Positions 2,188 to 12,479 of a stretch of DNA of 14,099 nucleotides are shown piece by piece (positions within the stretch are counted from its first letter, which is position 1; each line of letters opens with the position of its first letter). Location: positions 1-14,099 of the forward strand of contig MU658077.1 of NCBI GenBank assembly GCA_026770575.1, in the 5' to 3' direction. Origin of the DNA: Pelagophyceae sp. CCMP2097 (lineage: Eukaryota > Sar > Pelagophyceae). Both the position numbers and the translations under genes were made by a program. Under the pieces are notes generated by a model. The model was given only the letters and a program-made list of their open reading frames with translations. It was not told where the DNA came from and searched no databases.

Positions 2188-3356
2188 GTCTGCAAAGAAG
2201 GGGCCATCAAAAGAGACCTCACCACGCTGCAAGAGGAGCTCGCGCTGCATGTCCTCCGGGAGCTGCGACCACACCGCCGGGTCGACGCCTATTTGCCGCG
2301 TACGAGGCGAAGGGCCTTCAAGCCGCGCGCACCGTCAGGCACAGGCCAGTCGTTCTTCGTCGCCGCTGGTTGTTGCGGCATCGGCTGCGATGCGGGCGGC
2401 GTCGCCGGTTGCGGGTCGAAGCTGAGGCCGTCGAAGCCCCACGAATCCAAGCGCGGGCCGAGCGCGGGCGGTGGGGGCGCCGTGCCGTGCATCCCGTTAA
2501 ACGACTGCGGCGCAGGCGGCGCCGCGTACTGCGGCGCAGGCGCGTACTGTGGCGCGGGCGCGTACTGCGGCGCTGGAGCCGCGTACTGAGACGCCGGAGC
2601 CGCGTACTGCGGCGCCGGAGCCGCGTAGGCGGGCGCGGGCGTGTAGGCGGGCGCGGGCGCGGGCATGTAGGCCGGCGCGGCCATTGGGTTGTAGCCCGCG
2701 GGCGCGGCCGCCGCGGGGTTGTAGCTTTGCGCGGCCGGCGCGGGGGTGTAGGCCGTTGGCTGCGGCGGCTGCGGCGGCGGCGGCGGTTGCGGCTGCTGCG
2801 GCGGCGCATACTGCTGCGGCTGCTGCGGCTGCTGCGGCTGCGGTGGTTGCGGCTGCTGCTGCATGTACTGCTGCATGCCGCCGGGCATCCCGCCGGGCAT
2901 GCCACCGGGCATGCCCATGTGCTGCTGGCCCATACCGCCCGCCATGCCCTGCATGCCCGGCTGGCCCTGCATGCCCATCATCTGATTGCCGCCCATCTGA
3001 CCGGGCATGGGTTGGCGCATCTGCTGCATGCCCATCTGCTGCTGCATCGGCTGCATCTGGCCCGGCATCTGGCCCGGCATTTGGCCTTGGTTCTGCATGC
3101 CCATTTGCGGCTGCATCATGAACATTGGCTGCGGCGAGGTGCCAGGCCGCTGGCCAAACTGCTGGAACTGCATCATCTGGCCGCCCTGCTGTTGCGGGCC
3201 CGGGGCGGGGAGGTCGCCGAGGCCGGAAATGGCCGAGCTCCGGTGGCCTGGAGTCGTCGGCGGAGCCAGCATCTGGTACCCTTGCTGCGGCTGCGCATTG
3301 CCTGGCGGCTGGCCCGCGCCGAACGGCGGCCCCATCGAGAAAGGCCCGCCCTGCAT
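2182..3356 (-). CDS. Met/Gln/Pro-rich low-complexity protein with C-terminal ubiquitin-binding motif (UBM)
   Basis: Exons, in order of translation: 3356-2333 and 2288-2182, with a 44-bp intron (donor GTGCGC, acceptor AATAG). The joined length is 377 codons including TGA. Without splicing the frame stops at 2289, inside the intron. Residues 1 to about 330 are disordered and repetitive: GQMPGQM-type Met/Gln/Gly repeats, then poly-Gln/Pro, then PAPxYAAPAPQY-type Ala/Pro/Tyr repeats, which is a prion-like composition. The splice creates VDPAVWSQLPEDMQRELL (residues 343-360), which fits the UBM of Rev1 and Pol iota polymerases, including its invariant Leu-Pro (351-352). That motif binds ubiquitin. 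The protein may be a scaffold or coactivator acting on ubiquitinated partners; the specific role is unknown. The start at 3356 is the first ATG with a good context, though the frame is open to 3431, so an upstream exon cannot be excluded. It is head to head with the transcarboxylase gene. Confidence 0.75.
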
Positions 3357-3576
3357 GGCTGGCGCAGGCTGGCTCGAATCACGCCGTCCTTTTTTGATTG
3401 GCCGACGCCATGGGGTTCTGGGCTCCAGCACCGCCCGTAGAAGCCTAACGGGCAGCTATCCAGAGCCCGACTCCGAAGCGTGCATCTTCGGCGCACGCGC
3501 TCGAGCGTGCAGGGCCGCTCCGCCGAGATCCGCTCCCGTCGCGCCGACCTCGCAAGGCCCGCTTCGTCAGTGAAGG
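3357..3576. promoter_or_regulatory. Shared 220-bp head-to-head promoter region
   Basis: This is the space between the divergent start codons of the Met/Gln-rich protein (-) and the transcarboxylase (+). It must hold both promoters and both 5' UTRs unless upstream exons exist. I see no clear TATA box. A CCAAT-type element (attgg on the plus strand, near 3398) is present. No other convincing element. Confidence 0.45.
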
Positions 3577-6500
3577 ATGAATACGCCACTCTTTGAAGAG
3601 GTATGAACCCGAGGCCCCTTTTCGGTTCCTGCGGGCCTCGGGACCGGGCCACAACGAGGCCTCTCCGACGCTGGGGAGACGGCGGGCATGGGTGTCCGGC
3701 TCGTACCGACGCTGCCCGCGTCGTAGGTCTGTTCGAAGAACTTTTTGGACTTTTCGTTCGGCGGGCGTTCGTATGGGGACCAGCTCGTCGACGCCGTCCG
3801 CAAGACCAAGCAGCACTGCGCCGTCCGCGTCGACCTTCGCCAAGTTCGCAAGGGCGGCGAATCGGTCGATGTCGTCTGGGTCCAACACGACTTTGCTTTC
3901 CTCGGCGGCTCGCTCGGCTGCGCCGAAGGCGAAAAGGTCGCGCGAGCCTTTGAGCACGGCACGCAGCACGGCCTGCCCGTAATCGTCGCCTGCCGCACGG
4001 GCGGCGCGCGCATGCAGGAGGGCACTCTCTCCCTGATGCAAATGGCCAAGGTCTCCGTCGCGGTCGACGCGCACCGCCGAGCCAAACTGCCGTTCATCTC
4101 GCTCCTCGAGGACCCGACGTACGGTGGAGTCTCCGCGTCCTACGCCATGCAGGGCGACGTCAAGATCGCCGCGCCGCAGGTGCGTTCTTAAAGGACGCTC
4201 TGTCGTCGGACGCTAGTCTGACCGAACCCCTCTTGCTCGACGTTTTCGACCTGTAGGCGCGCATCGGGTTCGCGGGCCCGGGCGTGATTTTGAACACCAT
4301 GTTCGAGATGAACCAGGAGAAGTTTGACGCTGCTTGTCCGGCGGAATTCCAGAGCGCCGAGTACTGCTTGAAAAACGGCGCAGTCGACCTCGTCCTCGCC
4401 GACGGGTCGCCGGAGTGCCTCCAGGGCACCATCTACGACGTCGTCTCCGCGCTCTTAGCGAAGCCCGTCGAGGTGCCAAGGGAGGTGGCGCCCGCGGCGA
4501 CGGCCGCCGAAAAAGCGCAGCTCCCAGACTACACGGCGGCGCGAGGCATGCGCCGGCCGCAGTACGCCGACGTGCGCGCCGCTTTATTTTCCGACTTTGT
4601 CGAGCTCAGCGGCGACGGGCGGGCCGGCAAGGATTCGTGCATCCAAGGAGGAGTGGCCAAGTACGTACCAGCGTCGAACGAGTGGGAGAGGCCTCCGACC
4701 AGGGCCGAGAGAGCTGGGACCGATAGAGCTGGCGCCTCTCCGAGGTCCGAAAGACGGATGCCTCGATCCTCTCTGGGCCCTCTGTCTTCCGAGCAGGAGC
4801 CTCCCTTTTCGATGAGCGTGAACCTTCCCTCTTTCGACTTCGCCATTTCAGGTTCCGCGGCGTCGTCTCGTGCGTCGTCATCGGCTGCCTCAAGGGCCAC
4901 ACGCCGGGCGCCATGCAGGACGCGAACTATGGGATGCCGTCGCCGGCGGGCTACCGCACGGCGCTGCGCCTGTTCCAGCTCGCCGAACGCTTCGGCCTAC
5001 CAGTCGTGCGTACCCTTTCCGAGTCGAGAGGCCAGGGCCCGAGGCCGGCCAGGGAGGGTCGTCTCCTTTGAGAGGGAGCATCCTCCTCCGCCGGAGGAGG
5101 CCTTTCGACTGACGAGCGTGCTTTCGGACCGTGTCTTTTGCAGGTCACGTTCGTGGACACGTGCGGCGCGTGGCCGTCGTTCCCTGCGGAGGACGCGGGC
5201 CAGAGTGAGGCGATTGCGACGAATTTGACGGCCATGGCGGGGCTCCGCACGGCCATCGTCACCGTCGTCCTCGGTAACTGCCCGCGTCGCACGCACGGTT
5301 CTGACAAACAGACGACGTCGGAGACTCGGACGGACGGGGTCAAAGGAGTGAGCGGCAGGGGAGGCGCTCATCGTGGCCGCCGTTTATGAATAGCGTGCCT
5401 CCAGTTTGCCTTCAGGCGGCCTTTTTAGGCGAGGGCGGGTCCGGCGGCGCGCTGGGCCTGGCCATGGGCAATGCCGTGGGCATGCTGTCGCAGGCGTACT
5501 ACGGCGTCATCTCGCCAGAAGGGGCCGCTTCGATTCTGGGGAGATACAAGGACGACGCGCACAAAGCCGCCCAATTCCCCAAAGACTGCCACGAGCTCGC
5601 GACGGCGCAGTCGATTTATGCGTACCAGCTGCAAAAGCTCGGCGTCGTGGATGAAGTCATTTACGAAGACGCAAATGAAACGTGCGACGCGTTCGCCGTC
5701 ACTGCGGCAAGGATCGCCGAATACGTCTCCACGCAGCTCGCAACGTTCGCGGCCATGGCGCCCGACGAACTCGTATCCCAGCGCTACGGTTAGCGGCCCC
5801 TCTTTTCGAGAGCGGAGGGCCCTGTCTGCAGTCGTACATACCCGCGTCGGTCACAACCGCATCGCAGGCAAATATCGCGCTTTGGGCCAGTTCCTGGAGC
5901 TTTCCGTCTCGGAGCGGAATGCGGCCGTCTTGGCGGCCGAGGCGGCGTCGACGAACCGCGAGGCGCGGCCTCCGAAAGTCGATGTCAAGCCTTGCAAGCT
6001 CGTGCGTCATTTAGCGCACCAAGTCCTCCACGGGGAACGCGCCAGGTTCATGGGCCACGCGTTCGCCGGCGCGCCCATCTCTACGCCCGCGGTGCCGGCG
6101 GATCTGTTGAGGGCTCCCGTGCAGGTGGAGAACGCAAAGTCGGTGTTGGACGCAAGAGGCCCGGAAGCCATGTGCGCCTGGGTGAGAGCTCAGCCGCAAG
6201 TCCTGATCACGGACACAACGATGCGCGACGCGCACCAGTCTTTACTGGCGACGCGCGCGCGGACCATTGACTTGGTGAAAGGCGCGCGCTTGGCAGCGAA
6301 TTTGCTCCCAACAGCTTTCTCCTTTGAATGCTGGGGCGGCGCGACGTTCGACGTGGCGTACCGCTTCCTGAACGAGGACCCCTGGGATCGCCTCCGCGCC
6401 ATCCGCGCGGCGGCCCCGAACGTGTGCACACAAATGCTCATTCGCGGCGCCAACGCCGTGGGGTACACTTCCTACCCCGACAACGTCGTCGAAGACTTCG

Positions 6501-8080
6501 TGCGTTTATCGGCGGCCAACGGCATGGACGTCTTCCGCATCTTCGACTGTTTCAACGACGTGGAGAACATGAAAGTCTGCATCGACGCCGTGCGGGCGTG
6601 CAACAAGGTCGCCGAAGTGTGCGTCTGCTACACTTCCGACATGGTCCACTCAAAAATCTACGACTGCGACTACTACCAGTCCGTCGCGAAGAAGTGCGCC
6701 GAGGCCGGGGCGCACATGATCGGGATCAAAGACATGGCCGGTTTGCTCAAGCCGGCGGCCTGCGCGCCCTTAGTAGCCGCCATCCGCGCCGTATGCGATT
6801 TACCGATCCACTTCCACACGCACTGCACATCTTCGGCTTCTTTGGCTGTTGCGATGGAGATGACGCGGTGTGGGTGCGATATCGTGGATTTCGCAATCGC
6901 TTCAATGGCCGATCTCACTTCGCAGCCGTCCCTTAACGCCTTTTGCGCGGCCATGGACGGCATGCCAAGGTCGCCGGGCATCGACTACATGGCTCTGGAG
7001 CCTTTGGACATTTATTGGATGAAGGTGCGAGAGATGTACAAGCCCTTTGAGACGGGCATGCTCGCCGGCAGCGCTCGAGTCTTCGACCACGAAATTCCTG
7101 GAGGCCAATACGCGAACCTCTTCGTCCAGTGCGGCAGCATGGGCCTCGGAGGCAGGTGGGCGGAAGTCTTGGACATGTACCGGGACGTGAACCGGCTGTT
7201 TGGAGATATTGTGAAAGTAACGCCTTCTAGCAAGTGCGTCGGCGACTTGGCGCTCTTCCTCATCAATAAGAACATGCGCTGCGGAGATGTCTTGAAAGGA
7301 GGAGCGGTGGACTACCCGGACTCGGTCCTGGAGTTGATGGAAGGCCGCCTCGGTTTCCCGCACCGCGGCTTCCCGATCGAGGTGGTCAAGTCCATTTTGG
7401 GCGTCAAGCCGCAGCTGACGCAGCGCCCTTCGGCGGCGCTGCCGCCGGCGGACGCGGAGCAGACTGGTGCAGACCTTTCGGCGAAATGGGGCAAACACTT
7501 TGACGACGAGCGCATCTCGTCCGCGCTGCTGTACCCAAAGGTGTTTGACGATTTCATGAAATTCTGTGAAACCAAGACGGCAATCTCCGTCTACCTGCCG
7601 ACGCCAGTCTTCTTCTACGCCTTTGAGGTCGGCCAGACTGCGATTATAGAGGGCCTGCCTGCGCCGCTGGCCGAAATCGAGTGCGGCGTCCGTTGCGAGG
7701 CGCCGACCGTCGACGTCACCATCACTTTGAAGAGAGTCGGGCCCGTCAAGGCGGGCCGAATGCGCACCGTCGTGTTCGACGTCGACGGCCGCGAGGAGCA
7801 CGTGGAAGTGGCGCAGCCGACGGCGGACGGCGAATTTGCAGGGCTGATGGCCGATTCTTCAAACGAGGCGCACGTGGCGTCGCCCATGCCCGGCGCCGTG
7901 GAAAAGGTCCTATTCAAGGAGGGCGAATCCGTCCTTGCCGGCGACGAGCTTGTGGTGATCACGGCGATGAAAATGCAGGTCAAGGTGAAAGCGCCGTTCG
8001 CGGGCAAGGTGGCAAAGCTCCTCGTCAAAGAGGGAGACAAGGTCGTCGAAGCCGCGCTCCTCGCAGTCCTATCCAAGTGA
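3577..8080 (+). CDS. Single-chain biotin transcarboxylase: AccD-AccA carboxyltransferase fused to pyruvate carboxylase CT and biotin carrier domains
   Basis: Seven exons: 3577-3600, 3727-4179, 4257-4660, 4852-5005, 5144-5273, 5429-5788 and 5868-8080. All six introns are GT-AG, and the joined CDS is exactly 1246 codons including TGA. Domain order: AccD-like carboxyltransferase (about 10-228; GGARMQE at 100-106, GGVSAS at 141-146), AccA-like half (about 258-505; EGGSGGAL from 390), pyruvate carboxylase (PC) linker (about 510-619), PC carboxyltransferase barrel (about 620-900), PC tail region, and biotin domain (1174-1245) with AMKM, biotinyl Lys1210 lying 35 residues from the C terminus. Barrel residues known from PC are present: Asp624, Gln632, Arg701, carbamyl-type Lys796, His825/His827 and Thr859. 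No biotin carboxylase domain exists. Predicted reaction: oxaloacetate + acetyl-CoA to pyruvate + malonyl-CoA, or the reverse, on biotin without ATP, as in the three-subunit Propionibacterium transcarboxylase. AccA/AccD similarity favours acetyl-CoA, but propionyl-CoA is possible. A separate biotin carboxylase partner is the main alternative. The start rests on an 8-codon first exon (MNTPLFEE) spliced in phase; there is no obvious transit peptide and no AccD zinc ribbon. Confidence 0.92.
3727..4469 (+). other. Domain: AccD-like (beta) carboxyltransferase half
   Basis: Spliced residues 9 to about 230, interrupted by the 77-bp intron 4180-4256. The order of motifs follows bacterial AccD: a basic YGDQL segment, [54 protein letters not shown], and [16 protein letters not shown]. 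It starts at the equivalent of roughly AccD residue 100, so the N-terminal zinc-ribbon cysteines are missing. The crotonase-fold oxyanion glycines are intact. Confidence 0.9.
4548..5788 (+). other. Domain: AccA-like (alpha) carboxyltransferase half
   Basis: Spliced residues about 257-508, across introns 4661-4851, 5006-5143 and 5274-5428. Motifs follow bacterial Acc[21 protein letters not shown], then [30 protein letters not shown] (AccA usually has TPGAYP here), [21 protein letters not shown], and [14 protein letters not shown]. The N-terminal helical extension of AccA is absent. Fusion of the two halves restores an intact carboxyltransferase module on one chain. Confidence 0.9.
5868..6199 (+). 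other. Domain: pyruvate-carboxylase-type linker between the ACC module and the CT barrel
   Basis: Residues about 510-619. The segment [16 protein letters not shown], and later [17 protein letters not shown] just before the barrel, match the position and pattern of the region that joins biotin carboxylase to the CT barrel in pyruvate carboxylase (human PC has a KLLHYLGHVMVNG-type segment, and REGPEGFARAVRNHP before the barrel). This indicates that a pyruvate carboxylase gene donated everything downstream of its biotin carboxylase domain. Confidence 0.7.
6200..7450 (+). other. Domain: pyruvate carboxylase carboxyltransferase barrel and tail
   Basis: The barrel opens with [17 protein letters not shown] and keeps [78 protein letters not shown] and [10 protein letters not shown], closely following eukaryotic pyruvate carboxylase. 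Asp624, His825 and His827 would bind the metal with carbamylated Lys796, and Thr859 is the proton-shuttle threonine. After His827 a Cys replaces the usual PC Asp (HTHD becomes HTHC). The tail includes [16 protein letters not shown] and [12 protein letters not shown]. Confidence 0.92.
7862..8080 (+). other. Domain: biotin carboxyl carrier (biotinyl) domain
   Basis: Residues 1174-1245. It has the half-motif pattern of lipoyl/biotinyl domains: [20 protein letters not shown], then [20 protein letters not shown]. The biotinylated lysine is Lys1210 in AMKM, 35 residues from the C terminus as is usual for biotin carriers. It ends in VLSK followed by TGA. Confidence 0.95.
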
Positions 8081-8307
8081 CCTCGCAAGTGACCGCGCCC
8101 GCGCCGCCACCGACCCCCGACGTGCCACCTGCACCAACACTCCCTCCGCGGCCCGGGGTCCCCCGCCTAATAATGAACCTTCTTCTCGACTGAGCGGTCC
8201 GCTTCCGCGCGCGACGGACGGGCGCCGTGGGCAGATCGGTGCACCGCGCGATTTGCAGCGAGCCAACCGCCCGACTCATGACCGGGACTGGACATCCTGT
8301 GATTCCT

Positions 8308-8322
8308 ATTACATTACATTAC
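8308..8322. repeat. ATTAC x3 microsatellite
   Basis: Three tandem ATTAC units directly abut the 40-bp duplication. Confidence 0.8.
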
Positions 8323-8323
8323 A

Positions 8324-8403
8324 TGAAGTTCCGAGTCGGAACAACGAGGAGAGCATCTCCAACTGAAGTTCCGAGTCGGAACAACGAGGAGAGCATCTCC
8401 AAC
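8324..8403. repeat. 40-bp perfect tandem duplication
   Basis: Bases 8324-8363 and 8364-8403 are identical. Each copy contains the dyad GTTCCGA-g-TCGGAAC, so the array carries two palindromes 40 bp apart. The copies being identical suggests a recent duplication. Neither copy lies in a supported gene. Confidence 0.9.
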
Positions 8404-8567
8404 TGGCGTTTGTTCCGTCCTTTTATAGATCAGCCGCTGCGCCTCCGTCGCATGGCACTTGGCCCGTCCTTGTTCCGCGCCCGCCGCGGGGGCGAGCCTC
8501 TTCTGGAAGATCCTTTTAGATCCTGTCCAGAACCTTCTGGAAAGACCTTCTCGGACGTCCACTGAAA

Positions 8568-9961: not shown

Positions 9962-11501
9962 TCACTTGCGCGCGCGCTTCTGGCCCGCAGGCGGCGCGGG
10001 CGCGCCCGGCGCGGCGATTGCGGCGGCCTGCATGGACGCGGCGTCGGCGGCGCCCGGCGGCGGCGGCGCCTTGCGTTTTTGCTGCTGCAGTTGTTGTTGC
10101 TGCCCCTGCGGCTGCGGCGGCGGTGCCTTCTTGGCCTCGCTAGTGGGCGCCTTTGCGTCCGTCTTTTTGTCGGCGGCTCGCTGTTGCTCGTGCCTGCGCA
10201 GCTGCCGCAGCTCCGCCTCCTTCTTGCAGGCTAGCTTCTGCAGCGAGAGGAGCGTGACGACGTCGCGCCTTAGAGTATCGTACGCGTCCGCGACGAGCTT
10301 GGTCGGCGTCGGCTTCTCCGGGACACCGAGCTCGCCAAGAACTAAAGCCAGCTTGGCGAGCATGCCTCTAGAAAGGCCCGCCGCCGCGCCGTCGGGCACG
10401 CGGAGGCGGTGCGACTGCAAAAAAGGCACGCCCGGCTGCGGCCGCCGCGGCAGCGGCTGCGGCGGCGGCGGCAGGCCCGCGGCGAGCGCGGCCACGCCGC
10501 CGGGCGCAGAGTCGGCGCGCTCGCCCTTGGCCGACTTCTTCAAACGCCTGGACTCGAGCTCGACGGCCTTGAGCTCGTCTCTCAGAGCGCGCTCCTCGGC
10601 CTCTTCCGCTCGGGAACGGCAAAAGCTCACGTGCAGCTGCCTCCGCCGCTTCTCCTCGTAGGCCACGTCGTAGTCGCGCGACCGGAGCGAGATGCCCACG
10701 CGCGCGTCGGCGTCGCCGCGCACCAACGGCGATCCGCGCAGAGGCGCGGCCTCGGCCTCTTCCTCGCCATCACCGCGCGCGTCCCGGAGAGCGTGCGCCA
10801 CCGCGTAATACCTCGCCTGCAGCTGCTCCAACGGCCGCGGCGGCAGCGGCGCGTACCGGTCCGCGATGACCGGCCACCGCAGCTCGAACCTAGGAGAGAA
10901 CCGTCGGGTCTCGCAGATTGTGCCCGGACGCGGCATATCGACTGGTGGCAGAGCTGGAGCAGGTGGTCCGTGTCGGCGCGCGTCCAGCCGGCGTCTCTGA
11001 GGCATCGGTCGTACTCGTGCGGCGTGTACGTGACTCGCTGCAAGCCGACGTTGAAGCGCGCGTACGGGTAGTCAGCGTACTCGACGTCCGCTTTTTGCCT
11101 ACAGTGAGAGGTTCCTAGAGAGTCCTTCTGGAGGCCGATCCCCCGATGCAAGCGCGTACCAGTGGTAGAGCTGCAGGTCGTCGCTCCCTAGAATCGCGCC
11201 GTTTCCGCGGTTGGGAAAAGGCGGGTCGGGTCACGCACTGGCAGACGACGAAAACGGGGCCCAGATCCATTTCTTGGCAGACTTCTTCGCCGCCAACTTG
11301 TCCTTCTTCAGCCGCCGCGCGGGCATCATGCCCACGTCGTTGGTCGGCAGGACGCCCTATCGGAGAGTGCATACTCGAATGCATCCCATATAAGAAACCG
11401 TCGCCGAGGCGGGCGCGCATTTCTCCGGAGCGCGCGCGCCGTCCCGGTCGTACACACGGGCCCGCGGGCGCACGCACCTCCTCGGTCACGACCTCGCCCA
11501 T
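9962..11501 (-). CDS. SWC4: SWC4/DMAP1 homologue, SWR1 and NuA4 chromatin complex subunit
   Basis: Exons in order: 11501-11478, 11356-11239, 11187-11160, 11098-10943 and 10889-9962. Introns are 121, 51, 61 and 53 bp, all GT-AG, and the sum is exactly 418 codons including the stop. The splices rebuild family motifs: KKWIWAPFSSSAR (human DMAP1 has KWMPFTNPAR), LYHW joined to the next exon, and DYPYARFN. The SANT-like domain follows (about 78-135: VTYTPHEYDRCLRDAGWTRA, HLLQLCHQFELRWPVIADRY, LQARYYAV). The C-terminal DMAP region (about 262-342) has LGELGVPEKPTPT and a predicted coiled coil through LACKKEAELRQLRRHE. It ends in a Gln/Pro/Ala-rich tail with a basic QKRARK. Swc4/DMAP1 binds DNA and is shared by the H2A.Z-depositing SWR1 and acetyltransferase NuA4 complexes in the nucleus. 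The 53-bp intron has a weak donor (GTCGAT) but is needed for frame. The first exon (MGEVVTEE) is the least certain part. Head to head with the deacylase gene. Confidence 0.9.
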
Positions 11502-11815: not shown

Positions 11816-12479
11816 ATGCGCCTCGTGCTGCAGCGCGTGCACGACGCGTCGGTGCGCGTCGGCGACGCCGAAGTCTCGAGGATCGGGAGGGGCTTGGTAG
11901 CTCTGGTGGGCCTCGGTCCCGATGACACCGAGGCCGATCTGATATGGTGCGTCGACCGGATCGCCACGACCGCACTCTGGCCGGAGCACGTCGGCGCAAC
12001 AGAAGAGGGCAAAGCCTGGTGCGTCCGAGAAATTTGAACGACGGGGGACTAGCGTCAAACGCCCGACGGCGCCGCTGACCCGAATGCGCCTTTGGACCTT
12101 TAGGCATAATTCGGTGGCGTCGGCGGGCCTAGACGTGCTCTGCGTCTCTCAGTTTACGTTGTTCGCCACGTTGAAGCGGAAAAAGGGCGGCCTGACGTTT
12201 CACAACGCCATGGCCCCTACGCCGGCTCGGGTCGTCTACGCCGATTTCCTGGCAAAGGTCCGCGCCGCGCTCCCACAATGCGCGGTGCGCGACGGCGAGT
12301 TCGGCGCTAGAATGAACGTGAATCTGACAAACGACGGGCCGGTGACGCTGACTTTGGACTCGAGGAGTGGCAACGGCCTCGTCCCAATCAACGGCCCCAC
12401 CCTCGCGCCCACCGCCGGCGCCGCGCACGCGCCGCCGCCGAGGCCGACGCGCGCGCTCGCCGCGAGCACCAACAGATAA
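11816..12479 (+). CDS. DTD1: D-aminoacyl-tRNA deacylase (DTD)
   Basis: Exons 11816-12018 and 12104-12479, with an 85-bp intron (donor GTGCGT, acceptor TTTAG). The joined length is 193 codons including TAA. The enzyme hydrolyses D-amino acids (and glycine mischarged on tRNA-Ala) from tRNA, a chirality proofreading step after aminoacylation. The start MRLVLQRVHDASVRVG, the core VLCVSQFTLFATLK (SQFTL at 83-87) and the Gly-cisPro motif NDGPVTL (144-149) are hallmark DTD features. The splice rebuilds a Trp in AWHNSV, aligning with the HWSKSV of human DTD1. The ATG at 11816 matches the family start; the open frame extends upstream but has only a GTG. Residues 155-192 form a Pro/Ala-rich extension beyond the usual bacterial end (about 145 residues), likely disordered. 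Cytosolic unless a targeting signal was missed. Confidence 0.93.

Follow-up and report, generated by a model that had tools for sequence, protein, structure and literature searches.

A candidate single-chain, biotin-dependent transcarboxylase gene in a pelagophyte alga

What would a protein do that joins two carboxyltransferases (CTs) and a biotin carrier in one chain, with no biotin carboxylase (BC)? This question is raised by a gene at positions 3577-8080, plus strand, of contig MU658077.1 (C610) from the alga Pelagophyceae sp. CCMP2097. The window analyzed here is that whole contig, 14,099 bases long, and the assembly searched comprises 66.18 Mb in 638 contigs. We think it likely that the gene encodes a single-chain, ATP-free, biotin-dependent transcarboxylase of the Giardia type, which would interconvert oxaloacetate plus acetyl-CoA and pyruvate plus malonyl-CoA.

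Spliced translation of the window reproduced the seven in-phase exons of the original prediction, which join to give 1245 residues and a stop (Table 1). All six introns have GT..AG borders; five contain an in-frame stop, and the other, intron 3, is 191 nt long, so that its retention would cause a frameshift. Exon 1, with its eight residues, is the weakest of the seven: if unspliced, an in-frame TGA at 3571-3573 lies just 5′ of its start codon, and AccD chains from the PDB match the query from residue 8-9 onward. Both fusion junctions are intra-exonic, AccD to AccA in exon 3 and AccA to the pyruvate carboxylase (PC)-type part in exon 7, and the two fusion points are thus independent of splicing. 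Exon 7 begins within the AccA domain (residue 509, followed by KYRALGQ at 510-516), and its frame stays open to the stop at 8080. The gene is real and intact-looking.

Table 1. Coordinates of the predicted gene, its domains and the other features of the window.
Feature	Position	Strand	Remarks
Exon 1	3577-3600	+	Residues 1-8, MNTPLFEE; carries start codon
Exon 2	3727-4179	+	AccD-like CT; GGARMQE, residues 100-106
Exon 3	4257-4660	+	End of AccD-like and beginning of AccA-like part in a single open frame; first fusion junction
Exon 4	4852-5005	+	AccA-like
Exon 5	5144-5273	+	AccA-like; FVDTCGA, residues 348-354
Exon 6	5429-5788	+	AccA-like; EGGSGGA, residues 390-396
Exon 7	5868-8080	+	AccA tail, linker, PC-type CT, biotinyl domain, stop; second fusion junction
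PC-type CT	6191-7648	+	Residues 617-1102; Pfam, PDB and motif matches
Biotinyl (carrier) domain	7871-8071	+	Residues 1177-1243; Biotin_lipoyl and PDB matches
Candidate biotin lysine K1210 in AMKM	7970-7972 (codon)	+	Motif read from sequence
Ankyrin-repeat fragment at contig edge	8-391	+	Profile match
388-residue open frame	2292-3455	-	Very Gln/Pro/Met/Gly-rich; no Pfam match at E <= 0.01
EF-hand protein, 282 residues	8880-9725	+	First residues MGC
DMAP1-like protein	9965-11071	-	SANT_DAMP1_like above cut-off, DMAP1 model slightly below
D-aminoacyl-tRNA (D-Tyr-tRNA) deacylase, two pieces	11816-12476	+	Profile positions 1-60 and 63-144

Along the chain, an AccD-like and an AccA-like part are followed by a PC-type CT and a biotinyl domain with an AMKM motif. 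This order is seen in Pfam as Carboxyl_trans (residues 57-465, 9e-22), ACCA (252-515, 1.6e-77), a weak and partial HMGL-like match (744-885, 4e-9), PYC_OADA (913-1102, 9e-54) and Biotin_lipoyl (1177-1243, 2.6e-16). A search of PDB sequences with the 1245-residue chain matched 103 entries, and the PDB figures given here come from the best 60 of these 103. Residues 596-1240 match pyruvate carboxylase in one alignment (6e-168), residues 211-515 match AccA (4e-49) and residues 9-235 match AccD (5e-36), strengths that exclude chance resemblance. Alignments to mitochondrial PC chains start at query residue 549-550, so the stretch ahead of the CT is PC-like as well. The domain content claimed in the original prediction is borne out by both searches, and the predicted folds of the chain are already settled by these sequence matches. 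Its statement that the catalytic residues are kept holds in part. Motifs of both CT types and the AMKM of the carrier are recognizable, and we take them to have the catalytic roles known from their families. The AccD zinc finger, however, is missing: the two best PDB AccD chains match only from chain residue 75-77, and the Cys-rich start of bacterial AccD proteins is unmatched in alignment with this chain. The PC metal-site motif HTHDT-G is also changed, to HTHCTSS.

Pfam finds no BC family in the chain at E <= 0.001, and the BC portion of a bacterial PC, used as a tblastn query, has no match in the window at E <= 10, which bears out the predicted absence of a BC within the window. An overlooked BC exon upstream, a possibility raised in the original prediction, was looked for in the window and none was found; it is ruled out by the tblastn search together with the locations of the genome's Biotin_carb_C matches, all on other contigs. 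For a chain that has two CTs and a carrier but lacks a BC, the chemistry would balance as an exchange of a carboxyl group between two substrates. At the PC-type site, biotin on K1210 would accept the carboxyl of oxaloacetate, which becomes pyruvate; the carboxybiotin would then pass it to acetyl-CoA at the AccD-AccA (AccDA) site to form malonyl-CoA, or the whole cycle would run in reverse; the exchange would require neither ATP nor bicarbonate. That the chain is biotinylated and active, that acetyl-CoA is its CoA substrate, and in which direction it would run, we infer from what is known of the families. No leader is evident by eye, suggesting that the protein is cytosolic. The transcarboxylase reading put forward in the original prediction thus stands, as a predicted activity, on the BC-free domain content.

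Is such an enzyme new? The anaerobic parasite Giardia has a fusion without BC, in agreement with its published description, and a similar fusion occurs in Entamoeba, which our literature search did not turn up. The Giardia protein is described as acetyl-CoA carboxylase (ACC) and PC joined, together with a biotin carrier domain, in one chain of 1338 residues (PMC8700996). That paper credits the fusion to Jordan et al. (2003), whose cited title speaks of a ‘Giardia intestinalis transcarboxylase’; the same work is cited in PMC12141560, and GL50803_113021 is listed as an ACC/PC fusion in PMC9547401. PMC4957332 speaks of ornithine transcarboxylase only, and nothing relevant turned up in PMC3916229, PMC10703272 or PMC5608401. 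In the oxymonad Monocercomonoides, a malonyl-CoA:pyruvate transcarboxylase is annotated, and such candidates, which have no targeting signal, are argued to be cytosolic (PMC8767320). The suggestion that no described enzyme has this composition does not hold. Like the Giardia fusion as described, and similar to it in length, the alga's chain of 1245 residues combines an ACC-type CT, a PC-type CT and a biotin carrier, and Pfam and tblastn of the window find no BC domain. As the Giardia protein was compared by description, membership in the Giardia type is a matter of architecture. The Monocercomonoides enzyme, likewise compared by description, carries as its annotated name the very activity that we would assign to the alga's chain. 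Our search for such an enzyme in an alga found none among the titles and abstract openings listed from the open literature, a scope that leaves most subscription journals outside. We thus found the fusion in print for anaerobic protists only, and it is now seen in an alga.

Whereas Giardia is an anaerobic parasite, the alga has light-harvesting matches and the domain sets of PC and two ACCs. Taking genome domain matches exon by exon, with no gene models built, we find the light-harvesting family in 60 matched stretches (stretches, not genes), which marks the host as photosynthetic. On C14, matches to Biotin_carb_C, PYC_OADA and Biotin_lipoyl that all fall within about 3 kb show a pyruvate carboxylase. 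BC, biotinyl and CT matches on C63 and C393 show two loci of ACC type, and acyl-CoA carboxylase subunits lie on C12 and C75, with the propionyl and methylcrotonyl types not told apart. With these domain sets present, the fused enzyme is not a substitute for a missing ACC. PYC_OADA matches this gene and one other place, on C14, and four of the five ACCA matches fall on this gene's exons, the fifth being a weak one in the CT gene of C75; no second fused copy was seen among the ACCA and PYC_OADA matches. What is new is therefore a photosynthetic host that retains the ATP-driven enzymes; the kind of enzyme itself is known, if little studied.

Which CoA ester would be the partner? The methylmalonyl-CoA carboxytransferase of Propionibacterium has two CTs (12S and 5S) and a carrier (1.3S), with no BC. 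The original prediction drew this parallel, which is right as to logic and does not extend to kinship, as AccD/AccA- and PC-type chains beat 12S and 5S in bits. In the PDB search, PC reaches up to 564 bits on the keto-acid side against 246 for 5S, and on the CoA side AccA and AccD score 170 and 127 bits against 41 for 12S. The 5S and 1.3S proteins match the C-terminal half of the alga's chain at 6e-72 and 9e-12, and 12S gives a weak match at 4e-10. Propionibacterium also has separate subunits with a PccB-like 12S, whereas the alga has one chain with an AccD/AccA-type CoA-side CT. A transcarboxylase that uses another CoA substrate, such as propionyl-CoA/methylmalonyl-CoA as in Propionibacterium, would work by the same logic, and the genome does have domain sets of acyl-CoA carboxylases, on C12 and C75; we nevertheless regard it as unlikely, as AccA and AccD match the CoA-side CT far above PccB or 12S types, and this points to acetyl-CoA.

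Both CT halves descend from BC-dependent carboxylases, and the chain might still depend on a BC. Pyruvate carboxylase needs an ATP-grasp BC in the same enzyme, and this chain has none; the CT, linker and biotinyl parts of PC align with residues 596-1240 in one piece, while in PC a BC stands where the alga's chain has AccD-AccA, and HTHD stands in place of HTHC. The chain reads like a PC with its BC swapped for AccDA. ACC likewise needs a BC component, which is lacking here though the AccD/AccA part is present. Bacterial AccD and AccA, including the fused AccDA of Actinomycetota and Lachnospiraceae, are 31-46% identical to the alga's AccDA half (the highest being 46% over 408 columns), and they differ in having a Cys-rich zinc-finger start and no PC half; in the two fused bacterial cases inspected, the BC and carrier genes of ACC lie nearby. 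The AccADCB multifunctional ACC (PDB 9kkm, 1517 residues) also holds the ACC CT parts in one chain, but its name indicates the BC and carrier parts of ACC as well, and its best matching stretch covers residues 329-431 only. Consistent with this descent, a two-headed carboxylase might borrow the BC of another protein and use ATP to form malonyl-CoA and oxaloacetate, and Biotin_carb_C does match the genome four times. Each of these four matches, however, has a Biotin_lipoyl match nearby on the same contig, so no stand-alone BC was seen that could serve this chain, and we give the borrowed BC little credence.

Several observations weigh against an ATP-free transcarboxylase. A BC split across small exons elsewhere could escape a profile search. 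A genome search blind to introns gave 0 matches for biotin protein ligase; judging by the genome's other biotin enzymes, this ligase must be needed in the cell. The metal site of the PC-type CT is the third point. In a small sample of 11 sequences, in which the unannotated Paracoccus and Fusobacterium rows are named by similarity only, the position after HxH is Asp in 7/7 PCs, including the genome's own on C14, and Cys here, and the motif-final Gly is kept in the other 10 sequences and replaced by Ser in this chain alone. The Cys/Ser pair could mark a weakened site. In all three BC-free, oxaloacetate decarboxylase-type proteins compared, the position after HxH is Tyr or Ala, so Asp is not kept there in BC-free enzymes, and the Cys is in keeping with a CT that no longer serves a BC.

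The same residue would suit a soluble decarboxylase of oxaloacetate (or malonyl-CoA) that loses its carboxybiotin as CO2 and has one vestigial CT half, as the three decarboxylase-type proteins share the departure from Asp. Yet both halves retain their motifs, a sign that selection acts on each of them, and this reading seems to us improbable. The Na+-pumping oxaloacetate decarboxylase has a membrane beta subunit and a 5S/PC-type alpha subunit, with no CoA-side CT; the CoA-side CT of the alga's chain argues against membership in that group, and no search for a beta subunit was made. An artefact of assembly or gene model, whether two adjacent genes or bacterial contamination, could be imagined on a short contig with predicted exons, but is very hard to credit with fusion points inside single exons, a coding sequence split by six introns, and a contig that bears both eukaryotic neighbor genes and a genome-wide repeat, which exclude contamination.

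Where might the transcarboxylase fusion have come from? Used by itself as a query, the AccDA half at first brought up no relatives. A scan of a species-level genome collection with a three-row alignment matched at least 591 stretches, at least 590 of them relatives, and the 80 best were retained. Neighborhoods of these loci (flanks of at most 6 kb, less on several short contigs; tblastn, E <= 0.001) held a PC-type CT beside AccDA in 0 of the 80, or 0 of 81 with a viral match, L119, included. This viral match was rejected as a relative: it is an unrelated, truncated accD of bacterial type that seems, by eye, to lie next to phage genes. Plasmid records were matched as well, 111 for the AccDA half and 222 and 153 for the PC half. 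In a tree of 49 rows (46 of the 81 loci, each with one match spanning >380 query residues, two plasmid proteins and the window), the alga's AccDA sits on a branch of 3.28 changes per column with no firm place. A branch so long and unplaced points to no donor and sets no age for the fusion, and nothing in these results hints at recent acquisition from a lineage that was sampled. The PC-type CT is 49-53% identical to six bacterial PCs over 433-435 columns and 47% identical to the genome's own PC over 364 columns, so descent of the PC half from the genome's own PC is not supported by these identities, which differing rates may affect.

The contig belongs to the alga's nuclear genome, as the DMAP1-like and deacylase neighbors and a dispersed repeat indicate. 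This short repeat of 42-46 bases, CCGGGACTGGACATCCTGTGATTCCTATTACATTACATTACATGAA, lies at 8282-8327 and recurs at at least 40 further places on many contigs (152 candidates, 40 scored). Adjoining it, a 40-base unit, GAAGTTCCGAGTCGGAACAACGAGGAGAGCATCTCCAACT, stands in two tandem copies at 8325-8404. DMAP1 in other eukaryotes is a chromatin-complex protein, and the start of the EF-hand protein is one that we take to resemble an N-myristoylation start. A search of the window against Rfam came back empty.

In textbooks, malonyl-CoA is made by a carboxylation that ATP drives. If the fused chain is active, C4-acid and lipid-precursor metabolism would be coupled without ATP in a light-harvesting cell. 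We suggest, tentatively and as a possibility we hold below even chances, that the protein is a cytosolic valve, ATP-free and reversible, linking C4 acids to the malonyl-CoA pool in a cell with PC and two ACCs, and that the fusion is an older or laterally spread eukaryotic enzyme and not a relic of ACC-less anaerobic parasites. Its presence in an alga that also has ACC genes raises the question of what purpose it serves, and of whether it is ancestral or laterally acquired. Were the valve real, a surplus of C4 acids would let oxaloacetate supply fatty-acid elongation or polyketide synthesis, and in a shortage malonyl-CoA would replenish oxaloacetate.

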